A DNA stretch of 40,188 nt from Candidatus Poseidoniaceae archaeon. GTDB lineage: Archaea; Thermoplasmatota; Poseidoniia; Poseidoniales; Poseidoniaceae. Under the pieces are notes generated by a model. It searched no databases. It was given only the letters and a program-made list of their open reading frames with translations, and was not told the DNA's origin. The stretch is from assembly GCA_028822845.1 (NCBI GenBank), contig JAPKCS010000019.1, positions 1-40,188 of the forward strand, in the 5' to 3' direction. Of the stretch, positions 32,954 to 38,105 are shown piece by piece. The translations under genes were made by a program, and so were the position numbers. Numbering within the stretch: the first letter of the stretch is position 1; each line of letters begins with the position of its first letter.

Positions 32954-33343
32954 ATGGAACAACAATCAAACTTCATCCCCAACGTTACGCTTGGCTACGG
33001 CACCTTTCTCTTGCTGTGGGGCATAGCAGTCTCTGTTCTCTCGGGTTCAGAGTCCATCACATCCTATTTCCCGAGCCTTCTTGGTGTTCCATTGATGGTT
33101 TCAGGCATCATGACCATGCGCATGCCTGAGAAGCGAAAACTCTGGATGCACATCGCTGCAACTTTTGGTTTGCTCTGTGCGCTTGGAGGCACTCGGTTTT
33201 TCATGGTCATGAGCGATGGTATTGACTACGCTTCAGGATCAATGTTGATGTTGCTGATCACCGGTTCAGCCTACACTGCCTTCTGTGTCCGTTCCTTCAT
33301 TGCAGCGCGAAAAGCCCGAGAGGCTGCAAGCGCTGAGGCTTGA
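32954..33343 (+). CDS. Small four-helix membrane protein of unknown function
   Basis: 129 residues with four hydrophobic segments at about 14-31, 38-56, 64-85 and 93-114, a polar MRMPEKRK loop between the second and third, and a charged C-terminus (RKAREAASAEA). It resembles the general TMEM14/small DMT-like size class, but no diagnostic motif is visible, so no function is given. It is divergent from the cyclophilin gene and is followed after 55 bases by the S15 peptidase gene on the same strand, possibly in one transcript. Confidence 0.72.
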   Translation: MEQQSNFIPNVTLGYGTFLLLWGIAVSVLSGSESITSYFPSLLGVPLMVSGIMTMRMPEKRKLWMHIAATFGLLCALGGTRFFMVMSDGIDYASGSMLMLLITGSAYTAFCVRSFIAARKAREAASAEA

Positions 33344-33398
33344 AACCAGTTCAAGTTCAAAGCGTCATGCTCTTGATGGGGAAGGACTTCGCAGAAGC

Positions 33399-35300
33399 AT
33401 GGCTGATAGCAAGGGTTCCGAGGGCACCGCTTCAATCGAGGCGCTGTTGGTCCCTGTATTCGAACCAGCCAGCGCCGCTCGCCGGCAATTGAACTTCTCT
33501 GCTGCAGGCACCATTGCAGTCGCAGTGGTGTTTCTTTTGTTGGCGATGACGTTTGGTGAATCATTGGTGTCCTCATCGGCTCAAGATGAGTTCGAGGGTG
33601 AGTGGTGGAACACGCCGCTTCATCTGCGTCATCAGATGGATCTCCCGATGGACACATTGAGGGCACAGCTGCCAGTGAACGGTACCTACGAGGCGTTGCC
33701 TTATACCGAACATTTCATCGAAGTTGAACTTCCTGCAAGTGAACAGGATGCTGGTTTCCCCGGTCCTGCGCTCATGCACGTGTCTTTGTGGCTTCCAAAC
33801 GTTCCCGAAGGCACTCAAGTCCCAGTGATCATGACCATTCACCCATACTATGACTTTGGAGGTGAAGGCATGCCTGGCCTCGGAGATGATTCGTCCCCTA
33901 ACACGGTGCCAGACGGTGGCGTTGGCAAGTGGATTTACGACACATTCCTTCCTCACGGCTACGCTTTCGCTCAAGCCTCAACCTTTGGAACCGGTCAATC
34001 AACGCACTGCCAAGATGTCAAAGGGCTAGGTGAACAAACTGGAATCCAAGCCGTGACGGATTGGCTTGGTCAGCAGAACTGGTCAAACGGCAATGTTGGA
34101 TTGATGGGGAAATCATACGCAGGCACAACCAATTGGGAAGCCGCGCAAAACCCATCACCGCACCTGAAAACCATCGTTCCAATTTCAGGCTCAATTGGCG
34201 TTCAAGAAATGTTCTATCGAAACGGTTCTTCTGAGGCACGAGCCATGGGGTACGATGCCGCTTACCAAGCCGCAACCACCGATTTAACTACCGATGACAT
34301 GCGCGTCTGTTCAGACGATGCGATCGGACCCCTCAACCCGTTTTCGACATGGGGTTGGGCTGAATTCGGCGGTGCTGATTGGAGCGATTACTGGGACGAA
34401 CGACGCCATCTTCCTGACGTCTTGGAAAACTACCGTGGCAGTGTTTACATCGTCTGGGGCTTGCAAGACTGGAACGTCGATCCATACCATGCTTTCCCGA
34501 CCTATCAATTGCTCATCGATGCAGGCATCAACGCACGAGCAATCTCGGGTCAATGGGCTCACAATTATCCCGATCAGCCCGACCGGCACAGCGAATTAGA
34601 CAGCGGTTACGGCAAGGAGGCTTACCCAAACATGAGCCGTATGGACTGGGCTGTTGAGTTGTATGGCTGGTTTAATTATTATCTGAAGGGCATCGGCGAC
34701 GAACCAGAACCGATGGTACAAATACAAACCAATGACGGAAGATGGCACGTCGAGGACACGTGGCCACCAGCCGATATGATGTGGGACATGCACACCATCG
34801 ATTCTTCTTGGGGGAGCCTTGGAACCGTGAACGGTTTAGGCACCGGCGTGACCCTAACAAGTCCAACCTTCGAAAATAAAACCCACATTTCGGGCCTTCC
34901 AACCTTGCACCTTGATGTGACAACACAAGCCTGTAACGGAGGACAAATCTTTGCCACCCTCTACGATGACACAGATAACCTTCGCCTCGGACATGCGACG
35001 ATGGATATCCGCTATCGAGACGGTGGCTACGACGCTCAGCCAGCACTCCCATTCAGCCAATACACGATGCTCATGGAATTCAACCCCCTTGATGTTGTGC
35101 TCCCTGCCGGTCATTCGCTCCGGCTTGAGTTGAGTGAAACTGGAGAAGATTACCTGCCAGGACCCTGCGCATCGAATCCAGCTGGTGGCCTGACGGTCAA
35201 TGGAGGCACCTTTGGTTTGCCAATCATCGATCGGCCCTCTGCCCATGAGGCGTGGTTTGAATCACCTCACTGGTGGGATCAACAGCCAATCCCTGCCTGA
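33399..35300 (+). CDS. Membrane-anchored CocE/NonD-type S15 peptidase (Xaa-Pro dipeptidyl-peptidase family)
   Basis: 633 residues from the ATG at 33399; the frame is open from 33285, but the upstream part overlaps the preceding gene. One membrane helix (about 33-52) places the enzyme outside. The alpha/beta-hydrolase domain has the nucleophile motif GKSYAG (Ser239), the acid in GLQDWNVDP (Asp357) and the histidine in GQWAHNYP (His388), which fits the S15 catalytic triad. A C-terminal jelly-roll domain (about 450-633, with LRLGHATMDIRYR and VVLPAGHSLRLELS) is typical of PepX/CocE enzymes. The family cuts Xaa-Pro dipeptides or hydrolyses esters and acylated beta-lactams. An extracellular peptidase suits a protein-degrading marine heterotroph. 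The receiver gene follows 9 bases downstream. Confidence 0.92.
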   Translation: MADSKGSEGTASIEALLVPVFEPASAARRQLNFSAAGTIAVAVVFLLLAMTFGESLVSSSAQDEFEGEWWNTPLHLRHQMDLPMDTLRAQLPVNGTYEALPYTEHFIEVELPASEQDAGFPGPALMHVSLWLPNVPEGTQVPVIMTIHPYYDFGGEGMPGLGDDSSPNTVPDGGVGKWIYDTFLPHGYAFAQASTFGTGQSTHCQDVKGLGEQTGIQAVTDWLGQQNWSNGNVGLMGKSYAGTTNWEAAQNPSPHLKTIVPISGSIGVQEMFYRNGSSEARAMGYDAAYQAATTDLTTDDMRVCSDDAIGPLNPFSTWGWAEFGGADWSDYWDERRHLPDVLENYRGSVYIVWGLQDWNVDPYHAFPTYQLLIDAGINARAISGQWAHNYPDQPDRHSELDSGYGKEAYPNMSRMDWAVELYGWFNYYLKGIGDEPEPMVQIQTNDGRWHVEDTWPPADMMWDMHTIDSSWGSLGTVNGLGTGVTLTSPTFENKTHISGLPTLHLDVTTQACNGGQIFATLYDDTDNLRLGHATMDIRYRDGGYDAQPALPFSQYTMLMEFNPLDVVLPAGHSLRLELSETGEDYLPGPCASNPAGGLTVNGGTFGLPIIDRPSAHEAWFESPHWWDQQPIPA

Positions 35301-35305
35301 GGTGG
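35299..35305 (+). promoter_or_regulatory. Ribosome binding site supporting a GTG start
   Basis: GAGGTGG overlaps the stop codon of the S15 peptidase gene and lies 4 bases before the GTG at 35310. It decides for the GTG as start, because no in-frame ATG lies close downstream, and it suggests translational coupling. Confidence 0.6.
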
Positions 35306-35309
35306 TCCA

Positions 35310-35666
35310 GTGCGCGTGTTAGCGTTCGAAGACAGCTATGACATCGAAGCCTTGCTTGATTCCGCAGGAATCAAACATCAAATATCCCACATCACTCAAC
35401 GCTGGGATTCAAGCAATCCACTCGAGCACATAGCAAAAGTACGACCAGATGTGTTGTTGCTCGATTATTACATGCCCCCCCACACTGGTTTAGAAGTGCT
35501 TCAATTGCTGAATGAAGCCGTTGCGAAAGGGAAGGCTGTTCGCCCGCCAACAATCGTTGCGATGTCGAGTGAAGCCGGGGCGAATGCAGTGATGTTCCAA
35601 AAGGGTGCAAATCACCAAGTCATCAAATTCGACCTTCATACATTGGACATATGGAATGTAACTTGA
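35310..35666 (+). CDS. Stand-alone CheY-like receiver domain protein
   Basis: 118 residues with a GTG start. The receiver residues are all present: acidic pair Glu7-Asp8 in LAFEDSYD, phosphoacceptor Asp52 in VLLLDYYMPP, Ser86/87 in IVAMSSEAG in place of the usual Thr/Ser, and Lys106 in QVIKFD. There is no output domain, so it should signal by protein contact, as CheY does. No histidine kinase lies in the window, so the phosphodonor is unknown. The C-terminus after Lys106 is short, about 12 residues, and the last helix looks reduced. It follows the S15 peptidase with coupled translation, but a functional link is not evident. Confidence 0.87.
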   Translation: MRVLAFEDSYDIEALLDSAGIKHQISHITQRWDSSNPLEHIAKVRPDVLLLDYYMPPHTGLEVLQLLNEAVAKGKAVRPPTIVAMSSEAGANAVMFQKGANHQVIKFDLHTLDIWNVT

Positions 35667-35715: not shown

Positions 35716-36429
35716 ATGGTTGACTTCGATGCACCCGATGTTGGCTTCTCGCTGATTGATGAACTTGGAGCACTCGGACCGGTTTTCGGCCTGGTGTTAA
35801 TTGCCCTGGGTTTATTTTTGATGATACGAGGCCACGAGAGTTTGACCTACGTTGCCGCAGCGACAGGAGCCGGTTTCGGCTATGTGCTCACACCAGCGAT
35901 CTACCCGCTCGTCTCCTCCTATGTTGGAGTGTTGGAGCAAATTCACGTGATGGGCATCTTGATGTTGTTGAGTGCAGGGCTTCTGATGGCCACCATCCAA
36001 GTCAGCATTGCATTGATGGGGTCGGTGGTGTTTTTCCTCGTCGTCAGGTCAATGTTCGCAGCGGGAAGTTTCGGCGACAGTGAACTCATCACCAACGCAG
36101 TCGGTGTGATTGCCTTTTTCTCAGTTATTTGGATTCGAAAGCAACTTCCCCTGTTGGTTTCAGCATTTCTCGGTACCATTGCCACGCTCGGGGGGATGCT
36201 TATTCTAAACGGTCAACAAATGACGAATCTCGACCCCAAAAACAGTTCGACCATTGCAATTGTCTTGTTGCTTTTCACAATCAGTGTGACGGTCCAAATC
36301 CGGGCTATAAAACGCCGAGCTGAAGCTGAAAACTTGGATGAGAACGGTGAACCGAGGCCGCCTGAAGTCAAATCAGATCCACGCCGGGTCCGTGAACCAT
36401 CCCAATTCGACCTGCCAGATCTTCGTTAA
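35716..36429 (+). CDS. Multi-pass membrane protein of unknown function
   Basis: 237 residues with about seven hydrophobic segments between residues 18 and 195, for example GLVLIALGLFLMI, YVLTPAIYPLV, GILMLLSAGLLMA and IAIVLLLFTISVTV. A charged, proline-containing cytoplasmic tail of about 40 residues follows (RAIKRRAEAENLDENGEPRP). The helix pattern with small residues in GAGFGYV and the early RGHE resemble TMEM198/DUF4203-like proteins, but this is a weak impression. A hairpin overlaps its stop codon, and the AIG1-like gene begins 45 bases downstream. Confidence 0.75.
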   Translation: MVDFDAPDVGFSLIDELGALGPVFGLVLIALGLFLMIRGHESLTYVAAATGAGFGYVLTPAIYPLVSSYVGVLEQIHVMGILMLLSAGLLMATIQVSIALMGSVVFFLVVRSMFAAGSFGDSELITNAVGVIAFFSVIWIRKQLPLLVSAFLGTIATLGGMLILNGQQMTNLDPKNSSTIAIVLLLFTISVTVQIRAIKRRAEAENLDENGEPRPPEVKSDPRRVREPSQFDLPDLR

Positions 36430-36474: not shown

Positions 36475-37392
36475 ATGGAAGAAGTCCTGGTTTACGGAAG
36501 CCAGCAAACAGACCGTCAAACTTTTCTGGCCATGGCAGTGGTTACAGGGTTGTTGGTGTGGTTCTCTTTCAGTTTGGATTGGGGCAACCTCATACACACC
36601 AGTGCTGAATCATTCAATGATCCATGGGCTCCCCCAACGGTTGTGTTGCTATGGCGAATTACATGTGCAGGGGTTGGTATTGGAGCGGTTGTCTCCATGT
36701 TTCGAATTGGTGCTGGTACGATGCAAGTGCTGATGCATGAAGACCGAACAATGAAAATACTGGCTCCGGTTGGACGCGAAAAGTTTGTCACATTCAGTTC
36801 TTGGACCTTGGTCAGTAACATCCTGTACTTTTCAAGTGCTGGAGCAGCATCATTTCTTGGTAGCATTGGGAACGTGGTGCCTCTGTGGCTCGAGGCTTTT
36901 CAAACGACAATGTTTGCGATCGCTTGCGGATCAGCATTTTTGACAGCAGCCGTGGTCCGGCATGTCATCCTCCCCGGTCTCTTCCAATCTGACCGGAGTT
37001 CCGATTTCATTTTCAAGTACCATGAACAAATGATGCATAATTATTCTGCAATCTTTTTGGCCGTTGAAATGGTGCTCGTCGTTCCAAAACTACAACCAGA
37101 ATTGGCTCTTATTTGCGTCGGAATGGGGCTTTTCTACGTCTTCTTTGCCTATGTTAATGCCTATCATGGAAGTGGATTCTATGTGTACAGTTTCATCGAC
37201 CCGAGGCGCCGTTATGCTCCCTTTGTCATGATTGCATTGGCTGCTGCAATCGCAGTGTTTTACGTTTGCATGTACCTCGTCAGCCTCATAGCAGCAACGA
37301 ACCTGTTGGTTGCAGCGTTGATTTTGACGGCCTGGGTGTCACTTATTGTTCAGTTCAGTCCGACCCAAGACCCAGATCAGTCTTCATCGTAG
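36475..37392 (+). CDS. AIG1/ADTRP (FAR-17a)-like integral membrane hydrolase candidate
   Basis: 305 residues from the ATG at 36475 (a TTG at 36460 is an alternative) with about seven or eight hydrophobic segments. Two blocks resemble the eukaryotic FAR-17a/AIG1 family: KFVTFSSWTLVSNILYF (AIG1 has KYLTF followed by a hydrophobic helix) and HEQMMHNYSAIFLAVEM (AIG1 has an MHT...E block). A GSGFYVYSFID segment follows where AIG1 has G-x-WVYPF-L. The two proposed catalytic residues are Thr106 and His188, 82 residues apart; from memory human AIG1 has Thr43 and His129, 86 apart, and ADTRP Thr47 and His131. Those enzymes are membrane threonine hydrolases that cut fatty-acid esters of hydroxy fatty acids. 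Function here is inference. The C-terminus overlaps the convergent acidic-protein gene by 16 bases. Confidence 0.68.
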   Translation: MEEVLVYGSQQTDRQTFLAMAVVTGLLVWFSFSLDWGNLIHTSAESFNDPWAPPTVVLLWRITCAGVGIGAVVSMFRIGAGTMQVLMHEDRTMKILAPVGREKFVTFSSWTLVSNILYFSSAGAASFLGSIGNVVPLWLEAFQTTMFAIACGSAFLTAAVVRHVILPGLFQSDRSSDFIFKYHEQMMHNYSAIFLAVEMVLVVPKLQPELALICVGMGLFYVFFAYVNAYHGSGFYVYSFIDPRRRYAPFVMIALAAAIAVFYVCMYLVSLIAATNLLVAALILTAWVSLIVQFSPTQDPDQSSS

Positions 37393-38105
37393 GGTTGCCA
37401 TTCGTCTTGGCCTTCCTCTCGGAACCACCAGTAGCCATCCTCGTCCTCGAACCATTCGACACCGTTTTCATCAATGGAGTAGCCATCGACTTCTTCTTCG
37501 CCTTCTTCACTTTCTTCCACTTCCTCCTCAGCGTTTGGATCGACCAAACCTGAGTCTTGTGAGATTTGTTGTTTTACCCGTTCTAATTCCTCATCTGCAT
37601 CAGCGAAGACGCGGTTTTCAGTGATGATTTCGGCTTGATGGTCGCCTTGACGGATCGCGTCATCAGATTCTGAGATGAAGTCATCACTCATTCGAGCTTT
37701 GAATTCTTCAAATTCATCCCTTCCATAACTGCCAAGGAATTCATCCCCTTTCGATTGCATGAGGTCGTCCAAATTAGCTCGCTTTTCACGCTTCAAATCC
37801 GGTGCATCTGGAACGCTACCAGCATAAAAGGAATCTTCTTCATCCGATAACTTCCCGAAAGATCGGCCTTCAGGGTCCACTTCCTCAATCGCTTCAATGA
37901 TCAAGTCGTGTTCCTCTTCGTCGAGGTTCTCCTCTTCGTATTGGGTCCCAACCATGGTGACCAATTTGTTGAGGTTTTTCGCCAGCTTACGATCGTCGTC
38001 ATCGAATTCATTGACCAGTTTGTCAACTTGCTTGAGAAGGCGCTCATATGGGGTGCCAGTGATGGCTCCGAGAAAACGTCCAAAGCCGCCTTTCTTCTTC
38101 GCCAT
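37377..38105 (-). CDS. Acidic cytoplasmic protein with Trp-rich C-terminal motif
   Basis: 242 residues, no signal peptide or membrane helix. A short basic start (MAKKKGGFGRFLGAITGTPY) leads into a helical, coiled-coil-like segment (about 20-80, LLKQVDKLVNEFDDDDRKLA) and then strongly acidic, probably disordered sequence. Near the C-terminus a run of Glu precedes a Trp-rich motif: DENGVEWFEDEDGYWWF, then DEWQPYDED. The motif recalls the Trp-rich tail of the 439-residue anchored protein at 9414-10733 and may be a small beta module or a docking peptide. No known family is recognised. It is divergent from the JAMM gene and overlaps the convergent AIG1-like gene by 16 bases. Confidence 0.77.
   Translation of the reverse strand: MAKKKGGFGRFLGAITGTPYERLLKQVDKLVNEFDDDDRKLAKNLNKLVTMVGTQYEEENLDEEEHDLIIEAIEEVDPEGRSFGKLSDEEDSFYAGSVPDAPDLKREKRANLDDLMQSKGDEFLGSYGRDEFEEFKARMSDDFISESDDAIRQGDHQAEIITENRVFADADEELERVKQQISQDSGLVDPNAEEEVEESEEGEEEVDGYSIDENGVEWFEDEDGYWWFREEGQDEWQPYDED

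Follow-up and report, generated by a model that had tools for sequence, protein, structure and literature searches.

An unannotated family of Poseidoniales membrane proteins, probably remote relatives of AIG1/ADTRP, with a putative Ser/Thr-His site

The window analysed here (the whole stretch of 40,188 nucleotides, from a Poseidoniales (Marine Group II) genome) encodes a polytopic membrane protein, P0001. We suggest, with a probability of about 0.5, that the P0001 family shares an ancestor with AIG1/ADTRP and Pr6Pr, and that its members are putative membrane-embedded ester hydrolases or acyl-transferases acting through position 108 and His188. The nucleophile would be the hydroxyl group at position 108, at the beginning of helix 107–130 (a Ser residue, replaced by Thr in one clade within the second Poseidoniales family); His188, in helix 182–202, would activate it, and the activated hydroxyl would attack a lipid ester inside one leaflet. 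A Ser108 (Thr108)-His188 intramembrane esterase or acyl-transferase is the best-supported putative mechanism. The analysis itself shows the gene, its family, the constancy of [ST]108 and His188, the predicted fold and the alignment register; we infer that the proteins are catalytic, that Ser pairs with His and that the substrate is a lipid ester, the first and last of these by likeness to AIG1/ADTRP. If catalytic, these proteins would be an archaeal branch of poorly understood intramembrane ester enzymes in which a single site uses Ser as well as Thr, and they would offer a testable way into the roles of such enzymes outside FAHFA metabolism.

The P0001 gene and its distribution

P0001 has 7–8 helices. 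The opposite strand of its gene, in the same frame, is interrupted by stops. The features discussed below are as follows.

36475..37392, + strand: single ORF (ATG to TAG) for P0001, a 305-aa polytopic membrane protein, remote AIG1/FAR-17a-like
36790..36792, + strand: codon of Thr106, within KFVTFSSW, the nucleophile of the original prediction; Thr 45, Pro 14 and Ala 14 in 73 homologues; lies where a helix starts in the model (DSSP break)
36796..36798, + strand: Ser108 codon; position of the proposed nucleophile, occupied by Ser or Thr in all 73 homologues
36967..37263, + strand: stretch matched by PF04750, residues 165–263; 17.4 bits, under the 24.5 cut-off
37036..37038, + strand: codon of His188 (MMHNYSA), invariant (73/73); aligns with the AIG1 catalytic His
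37036..37041, + strand: His188 and Asn189 codons; neither residue varies (73/73)
37066..37068, + strand: codon of Glu198, H-x9-E as in AIG1; Glu 44, Asp 20, Ala 8 and Ser 1 across the family
37174..37194, + strand: G234-x-x-V-Y238-x-F240 block; Y238 and F240 invariant

The nearest named relative of P0001 comes from an uncultured Poseidoniales archaeon (86% identical), and the gene is present in 70 of the 146 genomes of the window's family. Since the ORF is conserved to this degree in a second Poseidoniales assembly and is this widespread, with an invariant His188, the observation goes beyond chance. A profile search of 390 genomes of the phylum recovered the family from both Poseidoniales families (f1 and f2); beyond this order it was essentially absent from these genomes, with one stray weak match, and a search of plasmids and viral contigs yielded no bacterial or viral homologue. 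As far as searched, the P0001 family is restricted to Poseidoniales. The members from the window's family (A1, 50 sequences) and from the second Poseidoniales family (A3, 23 sequences) matched each other by hhalign with an E value of 2.8e-73; they were therefore considered a single family, and together they make up the alignment of 73 homologues. Catalogues already list prokaryotic members of the superfamily (Pr6Pr; Caulobacter in PF04750). The novelty lies in the Poseidoniales family itself, which is unannotated, has one additional helix at its N terminus and carries an invariant Ser/Thr site two positions away from the Thr originally proposed.

Relationship to the FAR-17a/AIG1 superfamily

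The match of P0001 to PF04750 (Far-17a_AIG1) has an E value of 0.0031; of the 50 A1 homologues, this profile matched only 2. Over 194 genomes of the order, PF04750 gave 32 matches at E ≤ 1, five of them on the P0001 family; the long ones (about 90–160 profile positions) include P0001, G124 and G411, and most of the others correspond to short stretches or stop-containing frames. None of the 194 genomes reached the PF04750 cut-off. The bacterial Pr6Pr profile (NF038065, cut-off 30 bits) matched 19 of these genomes at E ≤ 1e-3, all from the second Poseidoniales family, and every located match that was compared with the family coordinates coincided with a P0001-family gene. It matched 15 of the 23 second-family (Marine Group IIb-like) members, the best at 24.7–25.6 bits (E 2e-5), over their His half and, in some, over nearly the whole model of 162 positions; all members fell below 30 bits, and P0001 itself had no match. 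No curated cut-off was reached by P0001 or by any homologue scanned, and a HMMER profile of the P0001 family did not place AIG1 or the bridge proteins described below above shuffles.

The TMEM164 acyltransferase family is related to AIG1, and one second-family member matched its profile (PF14808) over residues 57–227 (E 9.4e-5). TMEM164 was nevertheless rejected as a closer family, and this match carries no weight, since two unrelated membrane proteins of the same order, one an EamA-like transporter and the other CcmF-like, score equally well.

Proteins above the PF04750 cut-off (34.6 and 37.2 bits) do occur in a further archaeal family of the class, probably Marine Group III-like. Six of them (L072–L077) were used as a bridge. 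The gene neighbours on the contigs of L073, L075 and L076 fit an archaeal genome. The contigs of L072, L074 and L077 are bacterial-looking and could be contamination; the PF04750 gene there adjoins acyltransferase-like and histidyl-tRNA-synthetase-like genes that look bacterial. The superfamily had been described in the original prediction as mainly eukaryotic, a view that can no longer be held: it has a bacterial branch named Pr6Pr in NCBIfam, Caulobacter passes the cut-offs of both PF04750 and NF038065, and PF04750 is also passed in this other archaeal family.

The human AIG1 sequence used in the comparisons scores 263 bits against PF04750, and both its catalytic motifs agree with the published T43A and H134A mutagenesis primers, spelling KFL-A-FID and HGM-A-TTV (PMC11139994). 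In hhalign, the P0001 family aligned with the bridge plus AIG1 with a score of 30.1 (E 0.0017), which was reached by none of 300 column shuffles (maximum 22.5), in a register pairing His188 with His, Glu198 with Glu, and the Y-x-F residues. The best non-family ORF in the control was one of the PF04750 proteins, and the N-terminal half alone was not significant. The kinship with FAR-17a/AIG1 that had been proposed is upheld as a distant one by several tests that are individually weak but specific and point the same way, and the direct PF04750 match of P0001 remains below the cut-off; on these alignments, we consider kinship of the P0001 family with the superfamily to be supported but remote.

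P0001 shares several features with AIG1/ADTRP, which are FAHFA hydrolases: a His-x9-Glu motif whose His lies close to the beginning of a helix, the Y-x-x-[FW] and G-x-x-V-Y-x-F blocks in unchanged order, and a hydroxyl residue where the second helix ahead of the His helix begins. It differs in its sub-cut-off match and in carrying Ser (Thr in one clade) where the best register puts the nucleophile. It is also about 60 residues longer, and has one more N-terminal helix as well as a strand hairpin (83–96) ahead of the site. By profile, the [TS]-N-W-N-L motif of the bridge proteins aligns with S108-S-W-T-L of P0001, and their His is aligned as well; they differ from P0001 in their length (about 220–240 aa), in passing the PF04750 cut-off, in having Thr or Ser at the site, and in a PCG...CG loop that P0001 lacks.

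Position of the putative catalytic residues

Both Thr and His are required in AIG1 and ADTRP (PMC8123165; PMC11139994). The residues are T47 and H131 in ADTRP, 84 positions apart, and T43 and H134 in AIG1, 91 positions apart (PMC8123165). The original prediction had paired Thr106 with His188 at a spacing of 82, and had pointed to E-M and G-x-x-VY-F blocks downstream; both residues at that spacing, His188-x9-Glu198 and G234-x-x-V-Y238-x-F240 are present in the P0001 translation. The spacing of 84–86 that it gave is correct for ADTRP and not for AIG1.

In the alignment of 73 homologues, Trp110, Phe180, Met187, His188, Asn189, Tyr221, Tyr238 and Phe240 are invariant, and position 107 is Phe or Tyr. 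Position 108 always carries a hydroxyl (Ser in 55 sequences, including P0001, and Thr in 18, with Thr108 occurring in one clade within the second Poseidoniales family). Glu198 is not universal. With ungapped sliding profiles, the Thr/Ser motif of the bridge was placed best at Ser108 (15.7; next 6.5; Thr106 −6.2), a score matched by 8 of 5000 column permutations, with identities at Trp110, Leu112 and Asn115, and its His motif was placed best at His188 (15.4; next 0.3; 17 of 5000 permutations). The AIG1-only profile again ranked His188 first, less clearly (394 of 5000), and gave the Thr motif no significant placement (1029 of 5000), 106 scoring better than 108; the Ser108 register thus depends on the archaeal bridge. 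The catalytic His of AIG1/ADTRP has a constant counterpart in the P0001 family, at rank 1 with both profiles. A conserved catalytic Thr is not seen in the family: by the bridge register, the site aligned with it is 108, which is Ser or Thr.

The AlphaFold model of P0001 (m509615dd56b3, input A1; pLDDT 92.2, pTM 0.90) contains helices at 12–33, 36–48, 54–78, 100–105, 107–130, 137–171, 182–202, 208–231, 248–275 and 277–291. Residue 106 is the single non-helical residue ahead of helix 107–130, a helix-cap position from which the Thr/Pro exchange would follow. Helices 107–130 and 182–202 are one crossing apart, so that 108 and 188 would be expected, from the helix order, near the same membrane face. 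No solved relative was found by Foldseek against the PDB, nor a solved family member by sequence search. Against BFVD, Foldseek returned eleven uncharacterised nucleopolyhedrovirus proteins (probability 1.00, TM about 0.5–0.7), including A0A097P957, A0EYZ7 and D7F5Q2. These baculovirus proteins may be AIG1-like and acquired from insects; a literature search found no paper identifying them. The model of a bridging PF04750 protein (pLDDT 56) was too poor for use, and a fold search with it gave nothing significant, several of the same baculovirus proteins appearing at E 1–3.

Alternative interpretations

Thr106 could itself be the nucleophile, like AIG1 Thr43, paired with His188, in which case the clades with Pro or Ala at 106 would be inactive. 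KFVTF does resemble AIG1 KFLTF, all 30 rows of the large clade to which P0001 belongs keep Thr, and a short profile of AIG1 by itself puts 106 at the top. However, position 106 is Pro or Ala in 28 of the 73 homologues and has changed at least five times on the tree, with His188, Asn189, Trp110 and [ST]108 unchanged, and the bridge PF04750 set aligns its Thr/Ser with 108 rather than 106. We consider a catalytic Thr106 improbable. Because 106 varies while [ST]108 and His188 are constant, Thr106 is probably a helix-capping residue, and the alignments make Ser108/His188 more likely than Thr106/His188 as the pair. The residue to target by mutagenesis is accordingly moved from Thr106 to Ser108.

Somewhat less improbable is that the fold is shared with AIG1 and the proteins are not enzymes; the invariant His, Asn, Ser/Thr and Trp would then bind a ligand or a lipid, or would make up a structural core. 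No match attains a cut-off, the distribution is that of an accessory gene (about half of the genomes), and many of the invariant residues are non-catalytic in AIG1 (F107, W110, N189, Y221, Y238, F240); against this, both residues that AIG1 needs map to positions retained in every member. Least probable, with roughly one chance in nine by our estimate, is an absence of homology, the AIG1 motif matches arising from hydrophobic composition and chance in a polytopic membrane protein. Weak matches between membrane proteins are indeed cheap, as the transporter-like and CcmF-like proteins at E ~1e-4 against the TMEM164 model illustrate; yet the Pr6Pr matches in the order fall on the P0001 family wherever compared, two independent anchors fall on its invariant positions, and the top non-family ORF in the hhalign control is itself a PF04750 protein.

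The hydrolase or acyl-transferase reading through position 108 and His188 can be extended, more tentatively than the reading itself, to a distinct archaeal AIG1 branch in which the Ser/Thr nucleophile is exchangeable within one fold, with such intramembrane enzymes in all three domains. Archaea having ether lipids, the substrate of the P0001 family would then be predicted to differ from cell-made FAHFA.

Gene neighbourhood

Among the P0001-family neighbourhoods compared, no common lipid gene was found, and the neighbours are clade-specific; a pathway assignment from gene neighbours was therefore dropped. An S15 hydrolase and a CheY-like gene lie upstream of the family in two genera, and fumarase, TIM, EF-2-like, MMPL, XPG and peroxidase genes occur in other neighbourhoods. 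In the window, the segment directly upstream (33285–35666) encodes an S15/CocE-type alpha/beta hydrolase and, after it, a stand-alone CheY-like receiver, and in one genus of the second family (L109, L115) an S15 gene is convergent to the P0001-family gene. A 237-aa membrane ORF without Pfam or NCBIfam match also lies directly upstream in the same orientation (35716–36429), and was seen solely beside close relatives of the P0001 gene. The 3' end of the P0001 gene overlaps by 16 bases (37377–37392) that of a convergent acidic ORF of 242 aa (37377–38105, − strand), and this 3'-overlapping arrangement is retained in many relatives.
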